Assembly (NCBI RefSeq): GCF_000255135.1
Contig: NC_016751.1
Location: 310,001-374,000, forward strand
Direction: 5' to 3'
Length of the DNA stretch: 64,000 nucleotides
Origin: Marinitoga piezophila KA3
Lineage (GTDB): Bacteria; Thermotogota; Thermotogae; Petrotogales; Petrotogaceae
Position numbers and translations under genes: made by a program. The notes beneath the pieces are model-generated. The model was given only the letters and a program-made list of their open reading frames with translations, was not told the DNA's origin and searched no databases. Positions 4,146 through 11,591 of this stretch are shown here, in pieces (position 1 is the stretch's first letter; the number at the start of each line of letters is the position of its first letter).

Positions 4146-4219
4146 AAAAAGCTCTTTGACAAGTTAATATTCGAGTTTTAGTTTTGGAATGAATATGGCA
4201 AAGAATAAGAGGTGATTAT

Positions 4220-4987
4220 ATGGAATTAACCTATATCGACCTCATTAATCAATTTCACATGATCCGCCGAGCTAAAGGTCTGGGGCCGATAGAGACTGCT
4301 CTGTACTTCATCATATTAGATGAATACAATAGCCGCTATTGGCCTGATTCTTTAGCAGTGCCGACATGGGTATTGATGGAGCAGGTTGATATAAAACACA
4401 AATCTACTTTTTTTAACCATTTAAATAAATTGCAACAAGCAGGATTAATCGAATTTATAAAGGCAAAAAACCAATATGAAAAAATGATTATAAAAATAAA
4501 TGCCGTTCTAATAAATGACACACCACTTAGAACAGCACCTATAACAGCATCGCAACAGCAACGCAACAGCAACGCAACGGCACCCGAACAGCAACGCAAC
4601 AGCAACTTTCTAAAAAATGCTTTATTTGCTGATTACAGAAGCCGTAAAGATAATAAAGATATAAAAGATAATAAAGATACAGATATATATAATGTCGCGA
4701 TTGAGATTTTGGACTACTTAAACGAAAAAGCAAATAAGAAATTTAAACCTACAAAAGGAAATCTTAAATACATTAATGCAAGACTCAAAGAAAAATATCA
4801 AAAAGAAGATTTTTTTAAAGTTATAGATTTAAAAGTAAAACAATGGATTAATGATCCTAAAATGAAGCAATATTTAAGACCTTCTACTCTTTTTAATTCT
4901 GAAAAGTTTGATGCTTATTTGAATGAGAGTCTTGAAAGTAATGAAAATACAGATACTTTATTTATTGAATATCCTTATGGAGGATGA
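4220..4987 (+). CDS. Phage replication initiator (winged-helix plus conserved phage C-terminal domain)
   Basis: A 255-residue protein. Residues 1-100 look like a DnaD/replisome-organiser winged helix. Residues about 165-245 match the conserved phage C-terminal domain found in DnaD-like initiators (segments FKPTKGNLKYINARLKEKY and YLRPSTLFNSEKFDAYLNE). The linker between them, about residues 108-155, is glutamine/asparagine/lysine rich and is encoded by DNA with 11-bp repeats. It is followed by genes for DnaB helicase and SSB, so it probably opens the origin and loads the helicase. The site AGAGGTGA precedes the ATG. A TTGACA at 4156-4161 could be part of a promoter, but I see no matching -10. 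Confidence 0.8.
   Translation: MELTYIDLINQFHMIRRAKGLGPIETALYFIILDEYNSRYWPDSLAVPTWVLMEQVDIKHKSTFFNHLNKLQQAGLIEFIKAKNQYEKMIIKINAVLINDTPLRTAPITASQQQRNSNATAPEQQRNSNFLKNALFADYRSRKDNKDIKDNKDTDIYNVAIEILDYLNEKANKKFKPTKGNLKYINARLKEKYQKEDFFKVIDLKVKQWINDPKMKQYLRPSTLFNSEKFDAYLNESLESNENTDTLFIEYPYGG
4540..4606 (+). repeat. Six 11-bp direct repeats inside the initiator gene (candidate origin iterons)
   Basis: Units of 11 bp run head to tail. Three are perfect copies of CGCAACAGCAA (4551-4561, 4562-4572, 4595-4605). The units at 4540, 4573 and 4584 are degenerate. Eleven is not a multiple of three, so the repeat is kept at the DNA level and not as a protein repeat. The period is close to one helical turn. 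It lies in the linker part of the initiator gene, the position of the lambda origin within gene O. Confidence 0.75.
4646..4680 (+). repeat. AT-rich 16-bp direct repeat next to the iteron-like array
   Basis: AAAGATAATAAAGATA occurs at 4646-4661 and again at 4664-4679, a period of 18 bp that matches the codon frame (KDNKDI/KDNKDT). The region 4607-4700 is nearly pure A/T and lies directly downstream of the 11-bp array, as a DNA-unwinding element would. Confidence 0.6.
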
Positions 4988-4991
4988 TTAT

Positions 4992-5246
4992 ATGGATTTT
5001 TATAAATTTTTAGATGATTTAATAGATTTGCATTTTAAACGGTACAATCTTTCACATACAAAATACGCAAAAATCATTGATAAAAAAATTATCTACAAGT
5101 ATAAGCTATTAAAAAGAGCTTTAATGTTTGAAAGTTTTGCGGATAAAGAATTGATCGATTTTATGGATTCAGTAATCGAAAATGAGTGGGTGATAGACCA
5201 TGAAGGATTTAGAAAAATGGATAATCGGGTATATGTTCTTAGATGA
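4992..5246 (+). CDS. Small unrecognised protein between initiator and helicase genes
   Basis: An 84-residue protein starting at the ATG at 4992, with GGAGG at 4979-4983 (spacing 8). It is rich in lysine, tyrosine and phenylalanine and probably helical. I recognise no family. It overlaps the helicase gene by 47 bases, and its position between a replication initiator and a DnaB-type helicase would suit a helicase loader or adaptor, although it lacks a Walker motif. That role is inferred from position only. Confidence 0.6.
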   Translation: MDFYKFLDDLIDLHFKRYNLSHTKYAKIIDKKIIYKYKLLKRALMFESFADKELIDFMDSVIENEWVIDHEGFRKMDNRVYVLR

Positions 5247-6474
5247 TTCTATTGATGTTTCTGTATTAACAAAAGATGATTTTGAAAACACAAATTTCGG
5301 TGTTGTTTTTGAATATTTAAAAAACAAACTTGAGAATGGTGAAGTAATAGACGTCTTTACTGCATCAGCTGATTTGAAACTTTCGCCAGAAACTTTAGAA
5401 GATTTTATTGATAGTGTTCCTGATCTTTTTAATTTCGAAAATGCTATAAAAAAGCTTAAAGAAGAAAGTATTAAAAGACAATTAAAACATGTTGCTGAAA
5501 ATATTTCAAAGACTTTAGATAACGCAAATGTGTATGAAATTTTGGAATATGTAGAAAAAAGAGTCTTGGGAATTGAAGTTATCGGTGAAAGAATATATGA
5601 AACTTTAAAAGAAACATTGGAAACATATTTTGATGAAGTAGAAGAAATGCAGAAAAGAAGGTTGAATAATGAATTTGTTGGAATACCTTCAGGGATAAAT
5701 GATTTAGATAAATTTTTAGGCGGATTCAAAGGTGGGCAGTTAATAATTATTGCTGGAAGACCGGCAATGGGTAAAACAACTTTTGCTCTCAATATAGCAA
5801 CGAATATGGCAAGAAAAGGATATCCTAGCGCCTTTTTCAGCTTAGAAATGAATCAAAAGCAATTACGAAATAAGATTTTAGCTTCAGCAACTCACATTGA
5901 ATATAACAAAATTGCTCATGGATTTATAAACGGGAATGAAAGAACGATTATTAAAGATATTATAAATCAGCTTAAAAGAGTTCCTATTGTTCTTGGAAAA
6001 ACAACTAATTTAACCATTGATAGCCTTAAATCTGTAGCAAGAAAATTAAAAAGAGAGTATAAAATCCAAGGACTATTTGTTGATTATCTCCAACTTATGA
6101 CTAAGACTACAGATCTTGTAAAGGAACTTGGGATAATAACAAGGCAATTAAAACTTCTTGCTCTTGAATTAGACATTCCAATTTTCCTACTTTCACAACT
6201 TTCCAGAAACGTTGAGCACAGAGAAGATAAACGACCAATGTTAAGTGATTTAAGAGATTCTGGAACAATAGAGCAAGATGCTGATATTGTAATGTTTTTA
6301 TATCGTCCAGCATATTATGCAAGAAAAAAAGTAAAAGAAAAAGATGAACATGAAAATAAAGCTGAAAGGATTGAAGTTATTATTGGCAAACAAAGAGAAG
6401 GTGAGACCGGCATAGTTGAATTAGGTTTTTTTGGAAAGTATTCGCATTTCTTCGATCTTGCGTTAGCGAGGTGA
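5200..6474 (+). CDS. dnaB: DnaB-type replicative helicase
   Basis: A 424-residue hexameric helicase of the DnaB family. The N-terminal domain (residues 1-110) is short. The RecA-like core has Walker A GRPAMGKTT near residues 186-194, FFSLEM, Walker B LFVDYLQLM near residues 292-300, SQLSRNVEHR, and the C-terminal DLRDSGTIEQDADIVMFLYR. It is somewhat shorter than host DnaB, as is usual for phage copies. It would unwind the phage replication fork. The start ATG is preceded by GGGTGA and lies inside the upstream small gene. SSB follows after four bases. Confidence 0.92.
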   Translation: MKDLEKWIIGYMFLDDSIDVSVLTKDDFENTNFGVVFEYLKNKLENGEVIDVFTASADLKLSPETLEDFIDSVPDLFNFENAIKKLKEESIKRQLKHVAENISKTLDNANVYEILEYVEKRVLGIEVIGERIYETLKETLETYFDEVEEMQKRRLNNEFVGIPSGINDLDKFLGGFKGGQLIIIAGRPAMGKTTFALNIATNMARKGYPSAFFSLEMNQKQLRNKILASATHIEYNKIAHGFINGNERTIIKDIINQLKRVPIVLGKTTNLTIDSLKSVARKLKREYKIQGLFVDYLQLMTKTTDLVKELGIITRQLKLLALELDIPIFLLSQLSRNVEHREDKRPMLSDLRDSGTIEQDADIVMFLYRPAYYARKKVKEKDEHENKAERIEVIIGKQREGETGIVELGFFGKYSHFFDLALAR

Positions 6475-6478
6475 AAAC

Positions 6479-6946
6479 ATGGCAGGTTTTAATAAGATAA
6501 TTTTAATCGGGCGACTTACTAAAAATCCAGAAATAAGATTAACAACGACAGATATAAAAGTTTCAAATTTTACTTTAGCAGTAGATAGAAGTTATAGAAA
6601 AGAGAAGGAAGAAAGCAAAACAGATTTTATACCTATTACTTCTTTTGGCAAAAGCGCTGAGTTTGTGGAACAGTACTTGAGAAAAGGAATGCAAATAATG
6701 GTTGAAGGTAAATTACAAATAGATAATTGGCAAGATGAGAACGGACAATGGCATAATAAATCCTATGTTGTTAGTAGCAATATTGTATTTTTGGAGAAAA
6801 AGAAAGATCCCGCTGATGAGTATCAGGAAAAATACCTTAAAGATATTAACGAGGTTGAAAATAATATTGATGAACCTTTTGGAGATATTCCGGAAATAAA
6901 AGATGATGATTTTCCGCAATTTTTTCCAGTAGATGAGGAGGGATGA
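6479..6946 (+). CDS. ssb: Single-stranded DNA-binding protein
   Basis: A 155-residue protein with an N-terminal OB fold (MAGFNKIILIGRLTKNPEIR, then VEGKLQIDNWQDENGQ) and an acidic C-terminal tail. The tail reads DDDFPQFF followed by PVDEEG. The hydrophobic tip that normally ends SSB proteins (DDDIPF) is therefore not terminal. It lies directly after the helicase gene with GAGGTGAAAAC before the ATG. It would coat single strands during phage replication and recombination. Confidence 0.92.
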   Translation: MAGFNKIILIGRLTKNPEIRLTTTDIKVSNFTLAVDRSYRKEKEESKTDFIPITSFGKSAEFVEQYLRKGMQIMVEGKLQIDNWQDENGQWHNKSYVVSSNIVFLEKKKDPADEYQEKYLKDINEVENNIDEPFGDIPEIKDDDFPQFFPVDEEG

Positions 6947-10046: not shown

Positions 10047-10373
10047 ATGATAGAGATGTTTTTAATGTTATTAAAAAAATCCATAGAAAATAATACTATA
10101 CAATTTATCTGTAGAACTAAGAACAAGGAATTCCTGGCAAAATTTGGATGGACTGTTGAAGATATTTATGAATTCCTTTACAATGAACTAACTCCTGAAG
10201 ATTTTGTATATAAAGATAAAGAAAAGGATTCAGATTTTGATGATGGAGATATGTACATTTTTATTAAATATGCCTCAATTGAAAACGAAGAAATTAAAAT
10301 TTATATTAAAATAAAATATACGAGTCCAGATGATTTTATGGTTCTTATTTCGTTTCATGAGGCTGAGAGGTGA
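10047..10373 (+). CDS. MqsR-like type II toxin
   Basis: A 108-residue protein. The ATG at 10047 follows GGAGAGGAAATC. The pattern is that of MqsR-family toxins (RelE/ParE fold mRNA interferases): an FGWTVEDIYEFL helix, LTPEDF, then beta strands MYIFIKY, KIYIKIKY and MVLISFHEAE. No catalytic residue can be assigned with certainty from this reading. The antitoxin gene starts five bases after the stop. This toxin-first order is also seen in mqsRA. In a prophage such a unit could serve maintenance or exclusion of other phages. Family assignment is by pattern recognition only. Confidence 0.65.
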   Translation: MIEMFLMLLKKSIENNTIQFICRTKNKEFLAKFGWTVEDIYEFLYNELTPEDFVYKDKEKDSDFDDGDMYIFIKYASIENEEIKIYIKIKYTSPDDFMVLISFHEAER

Positions 10374-10378
10374 GTTTT

Positions 10379-11398
10379 ATGTTTAAAATAACCGAACCAA
10401 AAGAAAGGTTATATTGCGAAAAGTGTGGAAAATTAGTATCTTATACTATTACTGAAAAAGATGAAATATTTAAAATAAAAAAAGATGAGATAAGAATAAA
10501 AAGCACTATCGCTGTATGCGAAAAGTGCGGTGAAGAACTATTTGAACCATATTATGAAAATGAAAATTTGAAAAAGGCTTATAAAATATACGCTAAAAAA
10601 CATAATTTAGTTTTGCCTGAAGAAATTAAAAAAATTAGAGAAATGTATGGAGTTTCACAAACTTTATTTGCTTTAATTTTAGGTTTGGGAGAAGCGACTA
10701 TTCAAAGATATGAAAGGGGTTCTTTGCCAACAAAAGCTAATAGTGATTTAATTAAACGTGCTGCTGATCCTATAGAATTTAATAATATATTAGAAAACAA
10801 CAAAGATAATTTATCTGTCACTGACTACCAAAGGGTTAAAAATAAGTTATCTAACATATTAAAACAATATGAGGAAGAATTTGAATTAAGAAAATTAGAA
10901 GAAATTTTACTTTCTAATCACGAATCTTTAGTAATAGAAAAATTAGAGGGATTGATTTCTGCAATATTTTATTATCTACGAAAAATATATGGTTATACAT
11001 ATTTATACAAAACTGCATTTTTTAAAATGTTATGGTTTATTGAAAAAGAAGCAAAAGTAAGGTTCGGAAAACAAATTGCTAATTTAAGTTTTATTCATTA
11101 TTATTATGGTCCTATCCCAAAAGGAGCTAAAAATGATGAAGGTATCTTTTTAAATTATCTTAATAAAAAGAAATTAATTGATATTAATGTGGAATTTTCA
11201 TCTGATTTTTTAAATGAAACTTACAAGATAAACTCTAAAGATGAAACTGCTATAAAATATTTAACAAATGAAGAAAAAGAAATTGTTGAAGAAATTATTA
11301 AAAAATACGCTAATTTATCTGCAAAAAAATTAAGCGAAATTACACATGAAGATGAAAAATATATAAATACTGATCATGATGAAGAAATAATTTTATAG
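10379..11398 (+). CDS. MqsA-like zinc/HTH antitoxin fused to a Panacea (DUF4065) domain
   Basis: A 339-residue protein in three parts. Residues 1-55 form a zinc finger with two CEKC pairs (Cys13/16 and Cys47/50), as in MqsA. Residues about 78-125 form an Xre-type helix-turn-helix (VSQTLFALILGLGEATIQRYERG). Residues about 185-335 match the Panacea/DUF4065 domain (HYYYGPIPKGAKND; LTNEEKEIVEEIIKKY; LSEITHED). Panacea is known as an antitoxin domain paired with many unrelated toxins. The protein should neutralise the upstream MqsR-like toxin and repress the shared promoter through the palindrome at 10006-10025. ATG at 10379 is chosen for its spacing from GAGAGGTGA. Confidence 0.8.
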   Translation: MFKITEPKERLYCEKCGKLVSYTITEKDEIFKIKKDEIRIKSTIAVCEKCGEELFEPYYENENLKKAYKIYAKKHNLVLPEEIKKIREMYGVSQTLFALILGLGEATIQRYERGSLPTKANSDLIKRAADPIEFNNILENNKDNLSVTDYQRVKNKLSNILKQYEEEFELRKLEEILLSNHESLVIEKLEGLISAIFYYLRKIYGYTYLYKTAFFKMLWFIEKEAKVRFGKQIANLSFIHYYYGPIPKGAKNDEGIFLNYLNKKKLIDINVEFSSDFLNETYKINSKDETAIKYLTNEEKEIVEEIIKKYANLSAKKLSEITHEDEKYINTDHDEEIIL

Positions 11399-11422
11399 GA
11401 GCCTTAACAGGCTCTTTTTTTT
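11399..11422 (+). terminator. Intrinsic terminator after the toxin-antitoxin genes
   Basis: GAGCC (11399-11403) and GGCTC (11410-11414) with loop TTAACA, followed by eight T. It directly follows the antitoxin stop codon. Confidence 0.85.
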
Positions 11423-11429
11423 ATTATTC

Positions 11430-11514
11430 CGACAAACATCGACAGATTTCGACAGGTTCGACAACATTTGTGACTATGTGACAACTGTAGAATTTTTGTA
11501 GAGTGTTGTGACAA
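11430..11514. repeat. Phased CGACA and TGTGACAA repeats
   Basis: CGACA occurs at 11430, 11440, 11450 and 11459, spaced 10, 10 and 9 bp, so all copies face the same side of the helix. TGTGACAA follows at 11477-11484 and 11507-11514. There is no gene here. The cluster sits ahead of the tRNA and the terminase genes and looks like an array of protein-binding sites. Confidence 0.6.
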
Positions 11515-11516
11515 AT

Positions 11517-11591
11517 CAGGATATGGTGTTAATGGTAGCATTCCACACTTGGGATGTGGAGGTGCAGGTTCGAGTCCTGCTATCCTGACCA
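11517..11591 (+). tRNA. tRNA-Pro (anticodon TGG)
   Basis: A complete cloverleaf: acceptor CAGGATA/TATCCTG, anticodon stem CCACA/TGTGG with loop CTTGGGA (anticodon TGG), T stem GCAGG/CCTGC with loop TTCGAGT, and an encoded CCA. C1:G72 with A73 is the usual bacterial tRNA-Pro identity. The D stem is short (GTG/CAT, with a wobble). It lies inside the prophage between the early and late regions, so it is a phage-carried tRNA. Confidence 0.88.

Follow-up and report, generated by a model that had tools for sequence, protein, structure and literature searches.

A probable replication origin inside the initiator gene of prophage MPV1 and candidate origin-decoy arrays in other Marinitoga phages

The stretch analysed here, 64,000 nucleotides of Marinitoga piezophila KA3 (contig NC_016751.1, positions 310,001 to 374,000; hereafter the window), carries prophage MPV1, and we examined a set of 11-bp direct repeats (iterons) inside the MPV1 replication initiator gene together with gene-less copies of such repeats in other Marinitoga phages. 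The DNA at 4540-4692 is very probably the MPV1 replication origin, located within the gene of its own initiator. Arrays of iteron pieces from several different initiators lie in non-coding DNA of three other phages, where they may act as natural decoys of the type known as phage-encoded resistance (PER), in which phage origin DNA in trans inhibits the phage (PMC8965321). We assign a probability of roughly 75% to the combined explanation of an in-gene origin in MPV1 and PER-type decoy arrays.

Six 11-bp units are found at 4540-4605 (in order, TATAACAGCAT, CGCAACAGCAA, CGCAACAGCAA, CGCAACGGCAC, CCGAACAGCAA and CGCAACAGCAA), of which the three starting at 4551, 4562 and 4595 are perfect, as the first-pass annotation of this DNA had reported. 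Their period-11 score, 44 matches out of 55, is the highest 55-column score across the whole window. The maximum was 35 both in 1000 dinucleotide shuffles of the gene, with all periods between 8 and 24 allowed, and in 2000 synonymous recodings of the initiator protein, at period 11. TRF also detects the array (score 93), and the GC content of the iterons is 0.53 vs 0.32 for the gene. The same annotation described a nearly pure A/T stretch with a 16-bp direct repeat following at once; the repeat is present (AAAGATAATAAAGATA at 4646-4661 and 4664-4679), but the tract is ~80% A/T and sets in only about 40 bp past the last iteron, the 50-bp GC minimum (0.14) beginning 38 bp past it. GC skew, which had been suggested as a check on the origin, tracks the gene strand and is hence uninformative.

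The repeats lie in the gene of a 255-residue protein identical to the 'DnaD-like replication initiation protein' of MPV1 (OZ018341.1). Its best PHROG is phrog_428, replication initiation protein (E=1.5e-37), its C-terminus carries a Phg_2220_C domain (residues 163-235), and genes for DnaB and then for the single-strand DNA-binding protein (SSB) follow downstream. The N-terminal domain, modelled with AlphaFold2 at a pLDDT of about 67-88 in the order helix-helix-strand-helix-helix-strand-strand, is with moderate confidence a winged helix; its weak PDB matches include plasmid initiator N-terminal domains and a Rep-DNA complex (4pql, 4pt7, 5kbj; E 0.02-0.06). The linker is disordered in the model. 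On this arrangement, the winged-helix N-terminus would bind the 11-bp iterons, the AT-rich repeats beside them would melt, and the C-terminal part would recruit the neighbouring DnaB helicase.

An in-gene phage origin in MPV1 is ordinary and well supported, being a member of an already known type. In TP901-1 and Tuc2009 the replisome organizer binds repeats within its own gene; these repeats constitute the origin, and in trans they confer PER (PMC8965321). The Tuc2009 record is annotated 'contains origin of replication', and the units within its gene rep2009, which encodes Rep2009, are likewise 11 bp long (CAACCAAATGW). MPV1 resembles these phages in having direct repeats inside a replisome-organizer gene; it differs from them in that its unit sequence is unrelated, its C-terminal domain is Phg_2220_C, its initiator adjoins a DnaB gene and its host is a thermophilic bacterium of the Thermotogota. 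The lambda origin in gene O also consists of iterons followed by AT-rich DNA inside the initiator gene. MPV1 shares that order, but lambda has four iterons that are longer than those of MPV1, and as to homology to O the comparison gave one weak match, phrog_18020, 'replication initiation O-like', at E=0.0099.

Seven initiators were compared, namely those of MPV1, MCV2, Marinitoga camini virus 1 (MCV1), the G003 and G002 phages (named after the genomes that hold them) and the sequences L002 and L071. GC-rich repeats followed by an AT-rich stretch were present in 7/7; in the six other than MPV1 the tandem units are 12 bp long with a GC content of 0.47-0.61, and the adjoining AT-rich stretch has a 50-bp GC of 0.08-0.16. 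MPV1 and L002 are 100% identical in amino acids at the C-terminus and 18% at the N-terminus, with unrelated repeats, while L002 and MCV2 share 97% of the N-terminus and the same repeat type but 22% of the C-terminus. MCV1 and MCV2 have the C-terminus alone in common, and the G003 and G002 phages the N-terminus and repeats alone. This joint exchange in four pairs argues that the linker repeats belong with the N-terminal domain and that the C-terminus is swapped separately. Across the exchanges tabulated, the type of the N-terminal domain (a winged helix in the model) predicts the iteron type; 11-bp linker units also occur in phages with quite different N-termini (L072-L082).

These comparisons bear on an argument of the first-pass annotation, which held that a period of 11, not being a multiple of three, implies selection on the DNA, and which proposed looking for a conserved 11-bp register in related genes. 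No such register is kept among the related initiators, whose units differ wherever the N-terminal domain does and are usually 12 bp long; the glutamine/asparagine linker is not kept either. The 12-bp units of the sister initiators weaken the argument from period, which by itself is no proof, since tandem duplication can yield 11 bp. The layout of an in-gene iteron origin is supported by the DnaB and SSB neighbours, by Phg_2220_C and by the exchange of the repeats together with the N-terminal domain. Slippage can create short tandem repeats and the linker is modelled as disordered, so that the MPV1 repeats could in principle be a slippage-prone microsatellite encoding a linker, with no role as DNA. 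We consider this very improbable: synonymous recoding never attains the observed period score, the relatives keep the layout of iterons and then AT-rich DNA though not the peptide, and in the arrays described below the same DNA persists beyond any common reading frame.

Upstream of initiators with unrelated N-terminal domains, a leader, AAAGCTCTTTGACAAGTTAATA, is conserved (window 4149-4170; L002 1043-1064; L005 1433-1454; L041 7741-7762; positions approximate). Together with the common C-terminal DNA it brackets the exchanged cassette, and it may be a promoter or a recombination site.

A search with the initiator across the genus returned a second match, covering the iteron linker only, in non-coding prophage DNA of genome G005, where the array DNA is identical to that of MCV1. 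We designated the iteron types A (MPV1), B (MCV1's own), C (MCV2 and L002) and D (the G003 phage's own). In MCV1, MCV2 and the G003 phage, copied pieces of 60-110 bp, comprising the iteron part only of several different initiators, stand side by side in non-coding DNA beside the repressor gene (LexA-type or CI-like). The order is A-B-C in MCV1 and, at the same place, A-B-D-C in MCV2; in the G003 phage, an inverted D that matches the phage's own gene at 98% identity comes first, then an AT-rich block and a diverged A, then a repeat block not assigned to any type, followed by B and C. The type A piece of MCV1 is 67 bp long and 95.5% identical to MPV1, with nucleotides 279-353 of the MPV1 gene aligning to the MCV1 array and 279-342 to that of MCV2. 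Each carrier has an initiator of one type (B in MCV1, C in MCV2, D in the G003 phage); therefore, most array blocks belong to initiators that the carrier lacks. Since the records of MCV1 and MCV2 are those of complete viruses and the G003 phage comes from an IMG/VR contig, the arrays belong to phages.

Matrices derived from the units in the genes alone mostly score about 33-62 bits in the arrays, compared with shuffle maxima of about 12 or less in the same record. Two copies stand apart: the short type A piece in MCV2 scores lower (16.9 vs a shuffle maximum of 7.5), and in the G003 phage the diverged A escapes the matrix and is shown by alignment alone. No part of an initiator gene other than the iteron linker is present in the arrays. 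A coding function was rejected: the pieces are in different frames, they contain stops, and one block is inverted. A CRISPR-like array was rejected as well, the pieces having no common repeat between them and being iteron-linker stretches. The flanks of the MCV1 and MCV2 arrays are nearly identical, and the arrays themselves differ by whole units and by the entire D block.

The array of the G003 phage (L043 8300-9370) contains two more repeat blocks, a GAACAGG-type and a GGGAGAGTAGGT-type, that matched no known initiator; these blocks predict Marinitoga phage initiators yet to be sequenced. The pattern of the unassigned G003 block, GARCAGG at 12-bp spacing, was too common in both collections to single out initiators. 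Viral-contig searches with type A and type C sequence returned only Marinitoga phages that were already known, a looser type C pattern also giving matches, and a search with the type B initiator returned no additional Marinitoga phages.

Comparable DNA exists outside Marinitoga, although the cases were not collected systematically and gene annotation in the PLSDB table is incomplete. With the Tuc2009 origin as query, an identical 30-bp piece, just short of three units, was found in non-coding DNA of the 15.7-kb satellite-like element LT985572, which judging from its relative bIL310 is of lactococcal origin; the site is where the relatives bIL310 and LT985586 differ. Among plasmids, pER35 of Streptococcus thermophilus, a type I restriction-modification plasmid, has tandem units followed by AT-rich repeats at a place with no annotated gene, and the phage sequences matching this kind are initiator linkers of Streptococcus phages and satellites (SVep1 gene nucleotides 318-451, Javan193 gene nucleotides 348-421). 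S. thermophilus LMD-9 plasmid 2 carries two initiator-linker blocks, neither of them in its two annotated genes: the first matches phage 20617 in the linker region (124/146 positions identical), the second the Javan193 type (76/98).

The non-coding part of LMD-9 plasmid 2 (L094; 3.4 kb) at 506-2199 is a phage mosaic of the two initiator linkers, DNA of the Erf/SSB region of lytic phages and antirepressor DNA, and may be a broader array of anti-phage fragments.

As in PER, phage origin DNA is present without the cognate initiator gene in the Marinitoga arrays, pER35, LMD-9 plasmid 2 and the lactococcal satellite. In known cases such DNA resides in a prophage or plasmid, either as the Tuc2009 or TP901-1 origin in trans (PMC8965321) or as the non-coding origin of Sfi21, a prophage origin described as being activated by infection and dependent on copy number (PMC6356513). 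We propose, at about even odds, that the Marinitoga arrays are natural multi-specific origin decoys of this type. The initiator of an incoming or co-induced phage would be captured at the array copies or, alternatively, would fire a false origin there, and replication of the competitor would then suffer; a single chromosomal array could work through titration, handcuffing or false-origin firing. In iteron plasmids, extra iterons in trans can block replication by titration or handcuffing. The arrays would exploit the same kind of block but, unlike plasmid incompatibility, would have as their targets several foreign phage initiators and not a related plasmid. They also differ from known PER in combining several unrelated initiator specificities in one natural array, and in occurring in another phylum; here, binding and protection are proposed from sequence comparison.

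Several observations weigh against a decoy role. There is one array per prophage, whereas PER is described as depending on copy number (PMC6356513). The arrays include the carrier's own type too, and no array was found in MPV1, whose whole genome was searched, or in the G002 phage. The three Marinitoga arrays occupy the same location and probably descend from one ancestor, and so are not independent. The AT-rich block lies 5' of the array iterons, opposite to its side in the genes, and false-origin firing is therefore doubtful. Finally, the non-coding DNA flanking the arrays is conserved equally or more. This last point would also suit the main competing explanation, that mosaic recombination among phages left the arrays as relics, old initiator pieces remaining after module exchange and without present function. 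Initiator modules are clearly exchanged, and the arrays end next to a remnant of a repressor 3' end, a plausible recombination spot. We nevertheless think it unlikely that recombination debris would consist exclusively of iteron linkers, assemble three to at least four types at one place and retain unit sequence and spacing without a reading frame, the more so as gene-less origins comparable to these are found on streptococcal plasmids and a lactococcal satellite.

Next after the relics, and somewhat less probable again, is the possibility that the arrays are working origins that benefit their carrier, a prophage, plasmid or satellite replicated by rival or helper initiators. AT-rich blocks do adjoin the Marinitoga arrays, the iterons and AT-rich repeats of pER35 look like a complete phage origin, and mitomycin C amplifies the 13.3-kb plasmid pMP1, which M. 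piezophila KA3, the host of MPV1, also harbors, in MPV1-carrying cells (PMC11921389), though pMP1 has no type A match. However, the reversed position of the AT-rich block in the Marinitoga arrays tells against this too, and the carriers possess initiators of their own. A regulatory sensor, in which bound foreign initiators would switch an adjacent gene such as the repressor and thereby induce or silence the prophage, appears improbable: a LexA-type or CI-like repressor adjoins the array in 3/3 phages, and the MCV1 array is directly upstream of a CI-like gene, but the gene downstream of the array is not the same in MCV1, MCV2 and the G003 phage.

In non-coding DNA of plasmid pMP1 (L012), two to three units at 11329-11380 resemble type C (matrix score 10.7 vs a shuffle maximum of 5.1). 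At 11419-11457, 40 bp away, 39 bp of the plasmid match the DNA immediately downstream of the MCV1/MCV2 repressor at 87% identity. Given these faint matches, the units could conceivably be a small decoy or hijack site on a plasmid that MPV1 packages.

What is new here is that origin iterons of rival phages occur in natural multi-specific arrays, which would extend the idea of PER. If the arrays protect, they represent an anti-phage mechanism without a gene product, of a kind missed by protein-based defence searches, and they record phages that a lineage has met. Decoy pressure would then explain why the DNA-binding domain of the initiator and the iterons are exchanged jointly, and the rapid pace of this exchange. 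More tentatively, prophages, satellites and small plasmids might keep growing protein-free libraries of the origin iterons of rival phages, a heritable immune record made of DNA alone, by which foreign initiators are captured. The array pieces are short and modular, so the decoy idea is directly testable.

Features of the MPV1 replication region, in window coordinates
Feature	Position	Strand	Basis
Replication initiator (replisome organizer) gene of prophage MPV1, 255 aa	4220..4987	+	Identity to the MPV1 record; phrog_428
Predicted N-terminal winged-helix domain, residues 7-95, exchangeable specificity module	4238..4504	+	AlphaFold2; swapped together with the iterons
Segment also found gene-less in non-coding arrays of MCV1 (up to 4572) and MCV2 (up to 4561)	4498..4572	+	Alignment
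Six 11-bp iterons, proposed sites of the initiator N-terminal domain	4540..4605	+	Period analysis, TRF; GC 0.53
AT-rich tract with 16-bp direct repeat, proposed unwinding region	4645..4692	+	Same arrangement in six other initiators
Phg_2220_C domain, proposed helicase recruiter	4706..4924	+	Pfam PF09524, E=1.8e-30
DnaB-like replicative helicase, proposed partner	5200..6474	+	Pfam DnaB_C, E=7.4e-90; phrog_19
Single-strand DNA-binding protein	6479..6946	+	SSB annotation in the MPV1 record

Directly upstream of the iterons, and within the piece copied into MCV1 and MCV2, is an inverted repeat, GTTCTAA...TTAGAAC (4505-4511 and 4527-4533). Elsewhere in the window, an SMC-like gene at 384-2429 is intact in the prophage, but the annotation of the encapsidated MPV1 genome gives it as disrupted, and a tRNA-Pro gene at approximately 11516-11590 (10170-10241 of the MPV1 record) lies directly ahead of the terminase genes.
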